Part shown: one piece after another, positions 4,222 through 9,794 of the stretch
Numbering within the stretch: the first letter of the stretch is position 1
Layout of the letters: every line of letters starts with the position of its first letter
Origin: a virus
Virus record (IMG/VR): IMGVR_UViG_3300042905_005950
Location: 1-26,332 of that record
Reading direction: 5' to 3' (one strand)
Length of the DNA: 26,332 nucleotides
Translations under genes and position numbers: made by a program
The notes under the pieces: generated by a model
The model's database searches: none
What the model was told of the DNA's origin: nothing
The model's input: the letters and a program-made list of their open reading frames with translations, nothing else

Positions 4222-4249
4222 TTGACTTCGGTACATCTTGTGGTACAAT
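4222..4249 (+). promoter_or_regulatory. Sigma70-type promoter upstream of tRNA-Ile
   Basis: TTGACT (4222-4227), 16-bp spacer ending CTTGTGG, TACAAT (4244-4249) with TGG extension. The expected start site (about 4256) is only 3 bases before the tRNA at 4259. The promoter would drive tRNA, the gene at 4334, the methyltransferase and the gene at 5102. Confidence 0.75.
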
Positions 4250-4333: not shown

Positions 4334-4597
4334 ATGAAGAAGTATTATGCAATCGACGCAGGAAACGAGAATTACCTAAGTGATACGATATATCAGGACA
4401 ACTCTGCTCGCACTGGCACTTTGCTTTATTCTAAGAAGTCAGATGCACTTGAATGTCTTGAAGAGATGGAAAGCATCTGCAAGTATATGAAACGCAAGAG
4501 CACATATACCCTGAATAAAGTTCAAGAAATGTTTGGACCTGTGATTGTTGATGGAGTGTGGTATGAACGATTCAAGAGAAACTCGAAATCTAATTGA
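4334..4597 (+). CDS. Hypothetical protein starting 2 bases after a tRNA
   Basis: An 87-residue protein starting at ATG 4334 (MKKYYAIDAGNENYL); longer frames run into the tRNA. It contains an acidic-basic helical middle (ALECLEEMESICKYMKRK). No family recognised. No Shine-Dalgarno exists because the tRNA acceptor stem lies directly upstream; maturation of the tRNA 3' end would leave an mRNA beginning with TT-ATG, that is, nearly leaderless. The gene overlaps the start of the next gene by 35 bases in another frame. Confidence 0.68.
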   Translation: MKKYYAIDAGNENYLSDTIYQDNSARTGTLLYSKKSDALECLEEMESICKYMKRKSTYTLNKVQEMFGPVIVDGVWYERFKRNSKSN

Positions 4598-5102
4598 TCA
4601 TTATCACTATTGGAACCACGATGCTATACTCGCTGACCTTGATTCTCGTAGGCACAATTTTAGCGTACTATGCTGCAACCTTTACAATGATTTTAACATT
4701 GCAAGCGTTATTCGGAACGCAAATGCTTTTCTCGCTTCCGAAGTATTACTATACGGGTCCAAGCAGTTTGATCGCAGGGGCACGGTTGGAACCCATCATT
4801 ACACTCGATTCCGACACCTACCTTCGTATGACGATGTGCGAGCGTACTTGTCAGATAAATTCGTGGTCGGAATCGATAATGTTCCCGACTCGAAGCCTAT
4901 CGATGAATTCGATTGGCCTACCGATAAGCATGTAGTCATGGTCATGGGTCAGGAACAGGTGGGTGTTCCTATTGAGATTCTTGACATCTGTGATGTCACT
5001 CTTTATATTAAACAATACGGATCTGTTCGTAGTTTGAATGTCGCATGTGCAAGTTCAATTGCCATGTACGATTACTGCACAAAGACAGTGAGGGTTTCCT
5101 GA
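4563..5102 (+). CDS. SpoU/TrmH-family RNA 2'-O-methyltransferase
   Basis: A 179-residue SPOUT protein. I start it at ATG 4563 because GGAG lies 6 bases upstream. The three family motifs are present in order: motif 1 NDFNIASVIRNANAF (42-56, Arg51 being the conserved Arg), motif 2 MGQEQVGVP (128-136, GxExxGvP), motif 3 GSVRSLNVACASSIAMY (153-169, SLNV...A). These form the trefoil-knot SAM site; the family methylates ribose 2'-O in tRNA or rRNA. The length is close to minimal members such as TrmL, with no N-terminal RNA-binding extension. Lying next to phage tRNA genes and sharing their promoter, it probably modifies tRNA; the exact nucleotide cannot be read from sequence. Confidence 0.88.
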   Translation: MNDSRETRNLIDHYHYWNHDAILADLDSRRHNFSVLCCNLYNDFNIASVIRNANAFLASEVLLYGSKQFDRRGTVGTHHYTRFRHLPSYDDVRAYLSDKFVVGIDNVPDSKPIDEFDWPTDKHVVMVMGQEQVGVPIEILDICDVTLYIKQYGSVRSLNVACASSIAMYDYCTKTVRVS

Positions 5103-5248
5103 TGGGTGGTCAACATTCAGCAGGAAAGGGCGACAAATATCGCCCAATAGATTATAAGAAGTGGTCCGAGAACTGGGATAAAATTTTTGGTAAAAAGAAA
5201 CCCAGCAAAAAGCGGAAGAGTGGTCTTGACTCCAAGAAGCGTTCGTGA
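5102..5248 (+). CDS. 48-residue conserved basic protein
   Basis: Starts on the last base of the methyltransferase stop (TGATG, 5100-5104) with GAGGG upstream, so it is translationally coupled. The protein opens MGGQHSAGKGDKYRPIDYKKW and continues SENWDKIFGKKK, a short module I recognise as common in marine phages, then ends in a Lys/Arg/Ser tail. Function unknown. The promoter of the next cassette (5226-5254) lies within its last codons. Confidence 0.78.
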   Translation: MGGQHSAGKGDKYRPIDYKKWSENWDKIFGKKKPSKKRKSGLDSKKRS

Positions 5249-5254
5249 TACACT
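5226..5254 (+). promoter_or_regulatory. Sigma70-type promoter for the membrane-protein cassette
   Basis: TTGACT (5226-5231), 17-bp spacer, TACACT (5249-5254) preceded by TGA. It overlaps the 3' end of the gene at 5102 and would drive the genes at 5299 and 6091 up to the terminator at 6265. Confidence 0.65.
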
Positions 5255-5266
5255 ATAGATAACTTA

Positions 5267-5283
5267 CCCCACATGGTGTGGGG
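5267..5283 (+). promoter_or_regulatory. Leader hairpin before the outer-membrane-like gene
   Basis: CCCCACA (5267-5273) pairs with TGTGGGG (5277-5283) around a TGG triloop, at the expected 5' end of the transcript and just before the ribosome-binding site GGAG (5290-5293). A 5' stem of this kind often stabilises mRNA. Confidence 0.6.
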
Positions 5284-5298
5284 AGAAATGGAGATTTT

Positions 5299-6078
5299 AT
5301 GAAGAAGTTTGCAACTGTACTATCTGGTCTTGTTGCTTCGTCTGCTTTGGCGGCTAATCCCGCACCGGCAGCGGAGGGTGGGCTGGGTAGTCTGAAGTTG
5401 GACTTTGGTGCGCAGGCATCACTGTACAACTTCAAGGGAAACGGCGGGTCGATCCTCGCTGTCGTGCCTGAACTTGAAGTTCATGGCTTGGCAGAGGGGC
5501 TCGTTGTTTTTGCCGAACTCCCCGTGTACGGAGACGATAATCTTACCAACACTACCAGTCTTGGTGATCTTCGTCTCGGTGCTTCTGTTCGCGTCGTTCA
5601 AGAGGCTACCGAATTTGGTGCCGCTTGGCTTGATGTGAATGCTGGTGCTGAAATTCCCACCGCCGGTGGTGAACTCGGTTCTGCGAATGTGAACCCGTTT
5701 GTCGGGTTTGTTTTCGGTCTCGATGAGGTTGCGAAGTCAGAGTTTGACTTCACTCAAACCTTCGAGTACAAGTTTGTCGGTGGTCCTGCATTCAATCCGT
5801 ACCTCGGTGGTCAGACTGATGCAGACATCATCTTCATGCGTACGGATCTCTCGGCTCCTGTTTGGGGTAACGCACTCGTCGGTGCTGTCACTGTCAAGCA
5901 GAACTACACCGTGGATCCAGGTGAGCAGCAGCTCTTCGTTGGACCCAGCCTCGTCTGGAAGCCAACTACTGCAACCACCGTTGACTTTGGAGTTGATCTT
6001 CCAGTGTGGCAAGACCTCCAATCATTCCGCCCCGAGAACAATTGTGTTGTCTCTGGCGGCATCACTATCAACTTCTAA
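5299..6078 (+). CDS. Outer-membrane beta-barrel-like protein with signal peptide
   Basis: A 259-residue protein. I start it at ATG 5299 with GGAG upstream, because this gives a clean Sec signal peptide: KK, a hydrophobic stretch, then ALA-A near residues 17-20. The mature part is a series of alternating amphipathic strands (SLKLDFGAQASLYNF, LGDLRLGASVRVV, AWLDVNAGAEI, VNPFVGFVFGL, FDFTQTFEYKF, ALVGAVTVKQNYTV, QLFVGPSLVWKP, TTVDFGVDLPVW), and the protein ends SGGITINF with a terminal Phe, the BAM-recognised C-terminus of outer-membrane proteins. It resembles small porin or MetA-pathway-type barrels. Codons are host-like and it has its own promoter and terminator, so it is probably made early and in quantity. 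Superinfection exclusion or altered uptake are possible roles; neither is shown. Confidence 0.8.
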   Translation: MKKFATVLSGLVASSALAANPAPAAEGGLGSLKLDFGAQASLYNFKGNGGSILAVVPELEVHGLAEGLVVFAELPVYGDDNLTNTTSLGDLRLGASVRVVQEATEFGAAWLDVNAGAEIPTAGGELGSANVNPFVGFVFGLDEVAKSEFDFTQTFEYKFVGGPAFNPYLGGQTDADIIFMRTDLSAPVWGNALVGAVTVKQNYTVDPGEQQLFVGPSLVWKPTTATTVDFGVDLPVWQDLQSFRPENNCVVSGGITINF

Positions 6079-6090
6079 AGGAGAAATGAA

Positions 6091-6246
6091 ATGAACGAAT
6101 CTAATAAGACTTGCACTGCTGGGGCTGCTTCTTGCGTTTTCTGCTGGCGCAATCCCCGTCACTGGTACTTCCTGATCGCGACTCTTCCGTTCTTTGCGGC
6201 AGGTGTTCGCTTCATCGCTGATGTTCTCAGCAATGCCACTCAGTGA
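6091..6246 (+). CDS. 51-residue single-pass membrane protein
   Basis: A short gene 12 bases after the outer-membrane-like gene, with AAAGGAG upstream. The N-terminus is polar with three Cys (C8, C15, C18); a hydrophobic segment YFLIATLPFFAAGVRFIADVL spans residues about 26-46. It shares the promoter and terminator of the cassette. Function unknown; partnership with the barrel protein is suggested only by co-transcription. Confidence 0.75.
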   Translation: MNESNKTCTAGAASCVFCWRNPRHWYFLIATLPFFAAGVRFIADVLSNATQ

Positions 6247-6264
6247 TAATTGATCTTTGATCAG

Positions 6265-6297
6265 AACGGCATGGGAGAAATCCCATGCCGTTTTTTT
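6265..6297 (+). terminator. Strong rho-independent terminator
   Basis: AACGGCATGGGA (6265-6276) pairs perfectly with TCCCATGCCGTT (6281-6292) around a GAAA tetraloop, with a seven-T run at 6291-6297. It ends the membrane-protein cassette 18 bases after its last stop. Confidence 0.95.
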
Positions 6298-6300
6298 ATA

Positions 6301-6471
6301 TCAAGAAGAATGCTTGTTGTTCATACACGGACATGGGCTCTGTTTTATGTTCATGGTAGATCCATCTCTGAATTGAGGTTGATCTTTTTTTTCTATTTCC
6401 TCTTCCATGACTTTTCCATGGATGAGATGAGAAAATATTTCTTCTGGCATATAATTTGAAAGATATGTCAT
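6301..6471 (-). CDS. 56-residue hypothetical protein coupled to the Cys-rich gene
   Basis: On the minus strand ATG (6471-6469) overlaps the TGA stop (6470-6468) of the 1058-residue protein as ATGA, with AGGA about 8 bases upstream, so translation is probably coupled. The protein has an amphipathic acidic helix (MPEEIFSHLIHGKVMEEEIEKK) and ends CPCMNNKHSS. No family recognised. A role tied to its large partner (assembly or stability) is a guess from coupling. Confidence 0.62.
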   Translation of the reverse strand: MTYLSNYMPEEIFSHLIHGKVMEEEIEKKDQPQFRDGSTMNIKQSPCPCMNNKHSS

Positions 6472-9400
6472 GGGGCTGTTCCTGATGATTCCCCGTCTTG
6501 GGGACAATTTATTCCGAAGTTTTCTGGTTTACTGCAAGCGCATGTTTGAGGCAAGTTACAACATGCGTTAGGATTTGAAAGATTGTCTGGAATATAAAGG
6601 AATCCTATTCCACTCGAAGCTTGTCCGTCATTGACTAATTGCAGACATTCAAAATAATCTTTTATTCCAAGACATTCTTCTGCGATTCCTTCTCCAGAAC
6701 ATTTCCAGCAGCAGACTTTCGGGTTGAAGTCTACTTGTGTTCCTACGAACTTACCGTCATATAGCGGAGGATATCCGGGTCCGGGATATTTCGGACAAGA
6801 TGCGGCATTATGGCTTGGGTCTGTCGGCGGTTCTTTATCGGCACTTGCCCCGTTTCTTCTTCCCCCACAACAATAATCTGTTCCTGAGAATAGACGACCG
6901 TACCAAGGACTATTGATCGGTGCTCCTTCATTACCATAATCAACTATTCTATTTGAGAAACAAAATAGCCCTTCACATTGTTTTCCAGGATATGGAATTC
7001 CTAGATTATTTTGTGCCAACAATGCTTCACATACACCAAAATGAGAAAGCCTATTTGAATACACAGCAGGTATTGCATTTTCTATGGCAATTGGTATCGA
7101 TAGATTTCTGCATGTGTGTGGACAGAATTCATCATAATTTCCTGTAGTCTTGTTTACAGTATAAAGATAAGAATTTACTACACCATTACAAGTGCTGTAT
7201 TCCTCTGGGTATGCACCAGATGCTTGCACTATTTTATGTCTATAATATATGAAGCGTATTCCACTGCAATTTGCATTGAATGCTATTCCTCTGCAATTAG
7301 CTGGACCGCCTCCTTGTTCTGGGTGTGTGCTGCACCAAGATCCATCAGCACACTCTATGGCAAGACAAGATCCAACATCAGTGTCACACCCAACAACAGG
7401 AAACTGAACTAATTCTCCAGATTCAGGATCAATATAACCGCAACTTATGTCCGGACATCCAGCACCATCAAATTCAAAAGATTTTTGTGGATAACCGAAA
7501 ACACCAGCAAGACACCCACCCGGAGCATTTCCAATATTACTGTATCTTCTGGGAAGATCAGGAATCCTGTATTCGAGTTCAGGAGCCTCTTCCCCGGGCT
7601 GTGGGGGTCTCACGAACCCGCCACACACATAGTCCCATCCTCCGGGTCTTGCATGCATGTAAAGCCATTGGGACTCTCTCCATGTCTTGAACTGAAGCCA
7701 TTCGTCTGTGGGTGTTTGACCAGCAAGTGGTTCAGCAGGATAACTTCCTCCCCAAGGATCTTTTATCAAATCAGCAGGGAGTTGTAAATTCACCAGTGTT
7801 TTGTCTGGGTTATTGGTAAAATCTCTTTCAGATCTGACTATAGATGGAGTGAAAGAAATAGTATTCAGTCTTGCTTTTTTGGGGTTCAACCATGCAGGAC
7901 CTGTGACTCTTGTACCATTGACCATGACATTTATTCCACCATCTTCTTCTGGTATCCAAAGTTTCTTTCTTACAGGTCCAAGATATTTTTCAATAGGATT
8001 CGATAGAAGATGCGGTTTAAATCCTGAACAACTCACACAGGTTGCAGTGGTGCATTGTTCGCCTTGAATAAAATCTCCACCACAGAGACCACAAGTCAAT
8101 CCTGTTGTTTCAAAACAGTAAGAACTTAGAGTATCGCCACATGGACCGATTGATGCATCCCAGAATGAAGGAATACAGCATGAACCATAACCCTCAGTGA
8201 TTCCAGTTATCTTACCATAGAATTGTTGAGTATAACTCAGTCCCTGTAAGATCCCAATCTCATTCAGTGCTTCTTGTCTCCAATCACCGACATCGAAATA
8301 TCCACCCTCGGATAATTTCAGGAGAATTTCTTGCTTTGGTGTTTCTCTATTTGCCAGAGATTCAATTAGATTTTGATAATCTGTTTCCGTTAAGTAATTG
8401 TTCTTAATAGCATCTTTCAAATCAAAATCAAACAAAGGTACACCGGAGCAAGCATATATCCAGAATCTAGGACCAACCAAAGATGTATTGGCACCGATTA
8501 CATTCCCCGCATTATCAGTGATCCAGCCACCCAACACACCATTTTCATCATCGTGTTGTGGATTTTCTGGACAGCGAGCTATTTCATACCAATGTTCGCA
8601 GTGGACCACACAGAGAAGATGGTCATATAAAGTACCATTGTCAAAATTGGCAATTTCTTTTGGACCCTCATCTGGGGTGTTTTCATATGTGTAATACGGA
8701 CTGGCAACTCTTCTGCCTTCATCATAACACATGATGTCAAGAAGCCATCTGTAGTATGGATTCTTTTCCATCTGTCGTTTTCTATATCTGGATAGTCTCT
8801 TGCTTTCATATGAAGTGTTGGTTCCGGTCTTAGTATCTCTAAGCGGATCTTCCGGACCACCACCCACGCATTGACATCCCGCCCATGCAATATTATCAGA
8901 TCCCTGATCGATCATGCATGGGAAATCCATCGCCTCATATGGCTGTCCCGGAGCGGGATCGGTGTCATCTATATTTGCAAGTGGAGGAGTATTATCTAAA
9001 CATCTTTGTCCAATATAATTACCATAATTATCACCGGCAGAAGTTTTGTTGATGCTTGTAGGATCACAGAAAGAACATAATCTTGGTCTGCCGTTGTTCG
9101 GCCATTTTTTAGCCAATTTTCCCGCTGCCTCATAATCAAATTTAAAATATTGCCCGACATAATTGTAATAGATTTTGACATTCGGGTGGGCTTGTTTTCC
9201 TATATTGCAACATCTTTTCACACCAAGGGGAACTTCACTGCACAGTGGAAGAGAGTTAGGATCGTCTGGATCGCATCCCGGCGGTCTAGCACAAATAACA
9301 CCAAGAGGATTATCTGGATCTTCTGGAACATCCCAATCAATACAACCGGGTGGGGGATTATCTGGACAGCATGGGGCTTGTGTATTAGGGCAGCACTCCA

Positions 9401-9644
9401 TGCCATTTCCAGCAAATGCTGGTCTTTCATATTCAAAGATAAGTCCTTGATTTTTAGAGTGGCAACACCCAGCACTCGGTGTTATAACATGTCCTTGTAT
9501 ACACCCTTTGCATTCAAGTTTATCGCATTGACAACATTTGCATTTTGTGATATCTAGTGTGGGGTCGGCTTGTATCTGGCGAGCCCCTTTTCCAAACATT
9601 TTGTCGAATATTTTATTGGTCGGTTGATTGTAAAAATTTCGCAT
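6468..9644 (-). CDS. Giant cysteine-rich protein, probable virion component
   Basis: A 1058-residue protein starting at the ATG 9644-9642, with AGGA 6 bases upstream. I count about 67 cysteines (roughly 6%), many as CC or CxC pairs: KCKCCQC near residue 35, ECC and PCC around 83-93, SCC, CGLCGGDF, QCTTATCVSC, YCCGG, VCCWKCSGEG, ECLGIKDYFEC, ACCNLPQTCAC. The rest is rich in Pro, Gly, Asn and aromatic residues. There is no signal peptide or membrane segment, so it is cytoplasmic or in the virion. The hub protein at 19465 has similar Cys-rich linkers, which suggests both are structural. Zinc binding or disulphides formed after lysis are possible. I recognise no named family. Confidence 0.82.
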   Translation of the reverse strand: MRNFYNQPTNKIFDKMFGKGARQIQADPTLDITKCKCCQCDKLECKGCIQGHVITPSAGCCHSKNQGLIFEYERPAFAGNGMECCPNTQAPCCPDNPPPGCIDWDVPEDPDNPLGVICARPPGCDPDDPNSLPLCSEVPLGVKRCCNIGKQAHPNVKIYYNYVGQYFKFDYEAAGKLAKKWPNNGRPRLCSFCDPTSINKTSAGDNYGNYIGQRCLDNTPPLANIDDTDPAPGQPYEAMDFPCMIDQGSDNIAWAGCQCVGGGPEDPLRDTKTGTNTSYESKRLSRYRKRQMEKNPYYRWLLDIMCYDEGRRVASPYYTYENTPDEGPKEIANFDNGTLYDHLLCVVHCEHWYEIARCPENPQHDDENGVLGGWITDNAGNVIGANTSLVGPRFWIYACSGVPLFDFDLKDAIKNNYLTETDYQNLIESLANRETPKQEILLKLSEGGYFDVGDWRQEALNEIGILQGLSYTQQFYGKITGITEGYGSCCIPSFWDASIGPCGDTLSSYCFETTGLTCGLCGGDFIQGEQCTTATCVSCSGFKPHLLSNPIEKYLGPVRKKLWIPEEDGGINVMVNGTRVTGPAWLNPKKARLNTISFTPSIVRSERDFTNNPDKTLVNLQLPADLIKDPWGGSYPAEPLAGQTPTDEWLQFKTWRESQWLYMHARPGGWDYVCGGFVRPPQPGEEAPELEYRIPDLPRRYSNIGNAPGGCLAGVFGYPQKSFEFDGAGCPDISCGYIDPESGELVQFPVVGCDTDVGSCLAIECADGSWCSTHPEQGGGPANCRGIAFNANCSGIRFIYYRHKIVQASGAYPEEYSTCNGVVNSYLYTVNKTTGNYDEFCPHTCRNLSIPIAIENAIPAVYSNRLSHFGVCEALLAQNNLGIPYPGKQCEGLFCFSNRIVDYGNEGAPINSPWYGRLFSGTDYCCGGRRNGASADKEPPTDPSHNAASCPKYPGPGYPPLYDGKFVGTQVDFNPKVCCWKCSGEGIAEECLGIKDYFECLQLVNDGQASSGIGFLYIPDNLSNPNACCNLPQTCACSKPENFGINCPQDGESSGTAP

Positions 9645-9681: not shown

Positions 9682-9709
9682 TTGACACATACCTATCTTG
9701 TGGTATAAT
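9682..9709 (+). promoter_or_regulatory. Near-consensus sigma70 promoter of the tRNA cluster
   Basis: TTGACA (9682-9687), 16-bp spacer, TATAAT (9704-9709) with TGG extension; the best match in the window. The expected start (about 9716) is a few bases before the tRNA-like gene at 9719. ATACC (9689-9693) and GGTAT (9702-9706) form a short inverted repeat within it. Confidence 0.85.
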
Positions 9710-9718
9710 GAGATTGTT

Positions 9719-9794
9719 GCGGGCGTACCGGCTTTGCCTTCTAAGCAATAGTACCGTAATTGGATTTATGCAGGTTCGACTCCTGCCGCCCGTG
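9719..9794 (+). tRNA. Aberrant tRNA-like gene, possible tRNA-Arg (UCU)
   Basis: Acceptor GCGGGCG (9719-9725) with CGCCCGT (9787-9793), then TA, and a good T-arm (GCAGG/CCTGC, loop TTCGACT). The only good anticodon arm is TTGC/GCAA with loop CTTCTAA (9738-9744), anticodon TCT (Arg, AGA). This arm sits where the D-arm should start, leaving only CCGGC before it, while about 20 bases (9750-9769) lie between it and the T-arm. The total length, 76, is normal. It could be a D-armless tRNA with a long variable region, or a rearranged pseudogene. Confidence 0.55.

Follow-up and report, generated by a model that had tools for sequence, protein, structure and literature searches.

What would a T4-like phage do with a two-gene unit that encodes a predicted outer-membrane barrel and a small membrane protein? 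The unit lies at positions 5226-6297 of the window (the whole stretch of DNA analysed), a 26,332-base uncultured virus record with T4-type gp32, gp25 and hub genes. Its gp32 is approximately 55% identical to cyanophage gp32, and megablast of the window DNA gave no match among named phages. Judged by its genes, the carrier is an uncultured T4-like phage and the window is a fragment of its genome. DNA polymerase, UvsX, clamp and clamp loader genes are present on G001; the polymerase is also found on G011 and G012, UvsX on G011, and a hub/tail lysozyme on G009. T4-type genes are likewise carried by the distant-lineage contigs that have the barrel. Photosystem genes were found in none of the eight relative records, all of which are fragments.

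The initial annotation described a promoter, a 7-bp leader hairpin, a Phe-ending barrel ORF, a 51-residue protein and a GAAA-loop terminator in this interval, and all of them were found:

5226-5254, plus strand: extended −10 promoter from the promoter scan (−35 TTGACT at 5226-5231, N17 spacer, TG at 5246-5247, −10 TACACT at 5249-5254)
5267-5283, plus strand: 5′ leader hairpin just past the presumed transcription start (7 bp, arms CCCCACA and TGTGGGG, loop TGG; RNA folding)
5290-5293, plus strand: Shine-Dalgarno GGAG of the barrel gene, read from the sequence and kept in relatives
5299-6078, plus strand: barrel ORF of 259 aa with a signal peptide and a C-terminal Phe (alignments A1 and A6, AlphaFold2, VIA-align, alternation test)
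6078-6083, plus strand: Shine-Dalgarno AAGGAG of the small gene, read from the sequence
6091-6246, plus strand: 51-aa ORF for a single-pass membrane protein (alignment A7 of nine relatives, hydropathy)
6263-6294, plus strand: intrinsic terminator from the scan (14 pairs, GAAA loop, then a T tract)

The barrel gene occurs in 12 IMG/VR contigs including the window, spread over four diverged T4-like lineages, a count that is a lower bound on its viral relatives. Seven of these contigs are close relatives of the window; in five of them the gene is complete or almost so (86-93% identity), and in the other two only its end is present. The distant relatives (four extra contigs) were reached by searching first around the gene that follows the cassette and later with alignments that became larger at each step; identity to the window barrel between lineages is 30-40% (L050/L056 31-32%, L057 39%, L058 40%, L059 30%). 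The 51-aa protein was found in seven contigs after removal of one false match (L021), which is part of a longer reading frame in a phage rich in GC.

Among the close relatives, DNA similarity extends from the promoter's TTGAC to the terminator. In L057, L058 and L059, the whole unit, from leader hairpin through barrel and 51-52-aa protein to terminator, is present in unrelated DNA letters. Thus, the claim of a self-contained two-gene transcription unit holds: its signals are present, and their promoter-to-terminator order is found again in relatives, which is more than chance. The complete unit is kept in three of the four lineages, and the fourth has the barrel without its partner. L056 has the barrel and terminator without the small protein, a clear promoter or a clear leader hairpin, so the two-gene pair is not obligatory. 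The score of the leader hairpin was reached by none of 500 dinucleotide shuffles in a Watson-Crick stem scan. Its stem is 7 or 8 bp in the close relatives, the extra C and G having been acquired together, and among viral contigs the leader sequence occurs only with the barrel gene (5/5 matches). A hairpin of different sequence stands at the equivalent leader position in L057, L058 and L059; that of L059 contains a G-U pair, was missed by the Watson-Crick-only scan, and was found by reading and RNA folding. Terminator-like hairpins were detected in 8 of the 9 cassettes scanned (13-14 pairs in five, shorter in two), and the ninth, in L058, was missed by the simple scan and is visible by reading or RNA folding. 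The terminator of L059 also has a GAAA loop.

The description of the locus as an isolated unit applies to its transcription signals but not to its surroundings, where neighbour families are common to the relatives: upstream, a lysine-rich protein of 45-67 aa; downstream, tRNAs and a membrane protein of approximately 100-119 aa. Since these families recur, the cassette is not an insertion peculiar to the window genome. The non-aligning flanking DNA might suggest a mobile cassette, a reading that the shared neighbour families in the gene order do not support. In G001-G004 and G008, the cassette directly follows a gene for a protein of approximately 800 aa, which has a dockerin match in G001-G004. 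Between the cassette and the tRNAs of the window, a 1058-aa Cys-rich protein without a Pfam or PHROG match is encoded on the minus strand (6468-9644); it is also found in G001, G005 and G006, and is absent from G002-G004. Purifying selection acts on the barrel (dN/dS 0.12-0.16, dS 0.26-0.72), which stays 86-93% identical where baseplate proteins fall to 34-61%. Its dS is near that of neighbouring genes and below that of gp32 and baseplate genes (0.66-2.6); because dS is low around the cassette, the sameness of the barrel may partly come from recombination.

The barrel protein begins with a predicted Sec signal peptide, recognised by alignment and reading from a basic n-region, a hydrophobic stretch and an AxA motif at residues 16-18. 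A16 and A18 are invariant in the five close relatives (lineage 1), and the C-terminal Phe, the aromatic end residue expected of a beta-signal, is invariant in 9/9 barrel sequences. AlphaFold2 with nine sequences placed 12 strands across residues 33-259 (pLDDT 64, pTM 0.64; one of five models poor); with only the five close sequences, pLDDT was 26. The membrane-barrel fold claimed for this protein is thus what AlphaFold2 returned, in a medium-confidence model. Within strands whose limits were taken from that model, hydropathy alternation is 2.94 as against 1.42 (sd 0.30) in shuffles, none of 5000 of which reach it; in each of four distant relatives, 0 of 3000 shuffles reach the observed value. 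At medium confidence, the reading as a 12-stranded outer-membrane barrel is supported by the model.

The top matches of the model in Foldseek and VIA-align are outer-membrane channels (FapF Z 17.4, COG4313 16.9, KdgM 16.3, NanC 15.7, PcoB 15.3), with autotransporter barrels ranking just under them at Z 13-14. In the model, the outer loops span 4-18 aa, and the turns on the periplasmic side are shorter (2-7 aa). Acidic residues outnumber basic ones on the inward face in all four lineages (acidic/basic residues 16/5 in the window, 9/3 in L050, 12/4 in L057 and 10/4 in L059). Between-lineage conservation is 0.49-0.65 in loops 3, 4 and 5, 0.39-0.43 in the strands, and 0.22-0.35 in the other outer loops. 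We read the model as a putative water-filled channel whose outer mouth is constrained. Approximately 14 residues (19-32), candidates for a segment inside the lumen like the N-terminal one of COG4313 channels, stand before strand 1, with pLDDT below 50 up to residue 29.

The search for a porin family suggested by the initial annotation had a divided outcome: the fold matches 12-stranded channels, but no sequence family was matched. None of Pfam, PHROG and NCBIfam gave a match to the barrel; Phage_OMP (PF24653) was not among its profile matches up to E 1. Against PDB sequences, one insignificant ribosomal-protein match was returned and none that was relevant. By tblastn against named phages and plasmids, the window and distant barrels and the small proteins gave nothing significant. 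Two GTDB genome pattern scans found no relative; the scans require near-exact short peptides, so distant cellular relatives may exist. No description of the barrel family was found in the open literature, as far as titles and abstract openings go, with few subscription papers covered.

FapF, the functional-amyloid secretion channel with the best Z, is 12-stranded like the window barrel and shares 9% identity with it. FapF has an N-terminal plug domain, which has no counterpart in the 14-residue leader segment of the window barrel. The oligosaccharide porins KdgM and NanC are also 12-stranded (Z 15.7-16.3), at 8-9% identity to the window barrel, which resembles them by fold only and gave no Pfam match. 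The COG4313/Phenol_MetA_deg channels (PF13557; Pput2725, SphA and TcpY) are 12-stranded and monomeric, like the predicted window barrel, and residues 32-259 of the model align with 4rl8 (Z 16.9, rmsd 3.0 over 207 residues). Kinship with PF13557 looked plausible by eye and fold; however, hmmscan gave no match and hhalign against seven members gave a probability of 1.1% (P 0.047). As this profile comparison is not significant, the barrel is not filed under PF13557. It also differs from COG4313 in having only some 14 residues before strand 1, and the mature COG4313 channels are 270-320 aa in an excerpt of the published account, as against approximately 240 aa here (PMC4493636).

A phage gene for an outer-membrane protein had been called uncommon, which is overstated for uncultured phages. 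Several phage proteins in the structure search are already named outer-membrane barrel, porin or DUF481, and viral OmpL, encoded behind an ammonium transporter, is already in print (PMC8115048, in excerpt). The BFVD barrels of uncultured Caudovirales are predicted phage outer-membrane barrels too, with a low TM of 0.2-0.43 on query length and 6-12% identity. As excerpted, OmpL of oxygen-minimum-zone viruses is an outer-membrane channel gene that a phage carries close to a promoter and a terminator, as here; it lies behind glnK-amtB and has cellular relatives, whereas the window barrel stands alone with its small partner and none were found (PMC8115048). The barrel is a new protein family in a recurring two-gene unit; phage-encoded outer-membrane proteins are already known as a kind.

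The 51-aa protein has its own Shine-Dalgarno sequence and, by hydropathy, one hydrophobic segment. The motif C...CWxNPxH...LPFxxAG is invariant in its 51-52-aa family; in the alignment of nine sequences (A7), the invariant residues are C8, C18, W19, N21, P22, H24, A30, L32, P33, F34, A37 and G38. The small proteins of L057, L058 and L059 are 32-36% identical to that of the window. No Pfam, PHROG or NCBIfam family was matched, a DUF7670 match (E 0.059) in one of nine members only being judged chance.

The promoter belongs to a strict extended −10 class (TTGAC, TGnTAnAnT), with 31 sites in nine contigs as against 0.0 in mononucleotide shuffles. Three sites are in the window (4222-4249, 5226-5254 and 9682-9709), and the others are in eight related contigs. 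The class precedes the cassette in five contigs (window and G001-G004), gp32 in G002, G003 and G004, and also tRNA genes. In L057 and L058, the TG is missing and the promoter reads TTGAC-N17-TATACA; in L059, a good −35 is lacking. Enrichment of the T4-type late motif TATAAATA was not seen (35 observed vs 41 expected). The claim of host-like codon use was followed up solely as unusual composition relative to ORFs of the same contig. In the window lineage, the GC content of the barrel gene tops all ORFs of at least 150 aa in 4/4 contigs examined and is near that of gp32; in the window, its GC and C-ending codons are like those of gp32. Barrel composition is unremarkable in the other three lineages. 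On sequence grounds, the promoter class and the gp32-like high GC of the window lineage point to strong early expression and not to a virion part, and the promoter class suggests a role outside the virion. The strong host-type promoter, 5′ hairpin and gp32-like codons suggest that much protein may be made early in infection.

Our main reading, with a rough probability of 0.6, is that the unit makes an outer-membrane channel early in infection which remodels the host envelope; this is the core common to the channel and exclusion readings. We infer the outer-membrane insertion, early timing and channel activity of the barrel, as well as its partnership with the small protein. Host RNA polymerase would transcribe the unit early from the host-type promoter, and the leader hairpin would protect the message, a parallel being the ompA leader, whose 5′ hairpin protects its mRNA. 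The barrel would then be made abundantly, cross the inner membrane through Sec and be placed in the outer membrane by BAM. In its lumen, acidic residues are two to four times as numerous as basic ones and would make it a water-filled, cation-preferring pore, with the conserved extracellular loops as gate or binding site. The small protein would sit in the cytoplasmic membrane, N terminus inside, as the inner partner. The likeliest purpose, though at somewhat less than an even chance, is a phage-installed channel that alters what can get into the infected cell; superinfection exclusion comes next, and other envelope roles make up the rest. A more far-reaching reading is rather more doubtful, namely a new two-membrane phage system kept across T4-like lineages, in which an abundant early cation-preferring pore with constrained outer loops is joined, in three of four lineages, by an inner-membrane Cys/His protein (C...CWxNPxH) that may bind metal or contact the pore, and which would control the entry of solutes or rival phage DNA. 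The channel is placed only a little ahead of exclusion, since the data fit both, and no sequence family links the barrel to either.

As an auxiliary-type solute channel, the barrel would raise the uptake of a limiting nutrient during infection, which is possible at somewhat under even odds. The closest folds are specific 12-stranded channels (COG4313, KdgM, NanC and PcoB), the lumen is acidic and the mouth constrained, yet fold likeness does not give function, autotransporter barrels also scoring Z 13-14. Moreover, no transport or binding-protein gene adjoins the cassette in the window and a family match is absent, although viral OmpL, as excerpted, offers a precedent (PMC8115048). Under superinfection exclusion, which seems a weaker prospect, the barrel would mask or compete with an outer-membrane receptor or alter the surface, and the 51-aa protein would block DNA entry at the inner membrane. 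T4 Imm offers a parallel for such exclusion. The early-type promoter and the pairing of an outer- with an inner-membrane protein fit this explanation, as do outer loops conserved between lineages, which are expected of a binding surface; PADLOC models gave no match, and the constancy of the barrel relative to the baseplate, possibly a regional effect, argues against it. Early synthesis is frequent for exclusion proteins, and envelope-protein exclusion is known for T5 Llp, like which the unit would work, without kinship (PMC9586334, in excerpt). In that excerpt, T5 Llp and Cor are envelope proteins that the phage makes and that act on the cell it has infected, as proposed here, but they are small lipoproteins and not barrels (PMC9586334); no lipobox Cys is present here.

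Two further explanations are far less probable. A protein that acts late, in lysis or in the virion (such as a tail or spanin-like component), is very unlikely: beta-rich virion proteins are numerous in T4-like phages and tblastn gave a single insignificant match to a tail tubular protein (E 3), but the signal peptide with its AxA (invariant in lineage 1), the C-terminal Phe, the outer-membrane fold matches and the early-type promoter all stand against it. Still less credit is given to a recently captured host porin that is useless to the phage. Such an origin would suit the unusual GC in lineage 1, but four diverged phage lineages have the barrel, with leader and partner, purifying selection acts on it, and two limited scans found no cellular relative.

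The barrel family and its small partner recur in diverged virulent-type phages, so their function is testable with one construct. As a pore, the barrel would mean that a T4-like phage refits the host outer membrane early in infection; as an exclusion protein, it would stand for a barrel-based mechanism, distinct from that of the small lipoproteins of T5 and T1.

Several minor observations concern the surrounding DNA. A SpoU-type RNA methylase gene at 4563-5102 of the window (PF00588, E 9e-24) is conserved at 95-96% among three relatives and at 75% in one more. At 9719-9794, beside a clear tRNA-Gly, Rfam gave a weak tRNA match (35.6 bits) unreported by ARAGORN, and the relatives carry tRNA-Arg at this place. 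Phage proteins with C-terminal dockerin-type repeats (PF00404) are found in 6/8 related records (L031:4178-5251, L031:5362-7815 and relatives), which may hint at a host whose surface carries proteins of this type. From these repeats and their taxonomic distribution, a planctomycete host might be suspected, a link on which the literature searched gave nothing. Several genes near the cassette start with an MKTFKQLxxxLE-like sequence (L059:10822-11829, L057:1921-2654 and G001 5178-5624), which resembles the sequence that targets internal head proteins of T4 to the capsid. G001 also contains, at 37-55 kb (L028 and L029), a run of approximately 20 ORFs, one of them related to the FkbM methyltransferase of the window, that may modify surface glycans.
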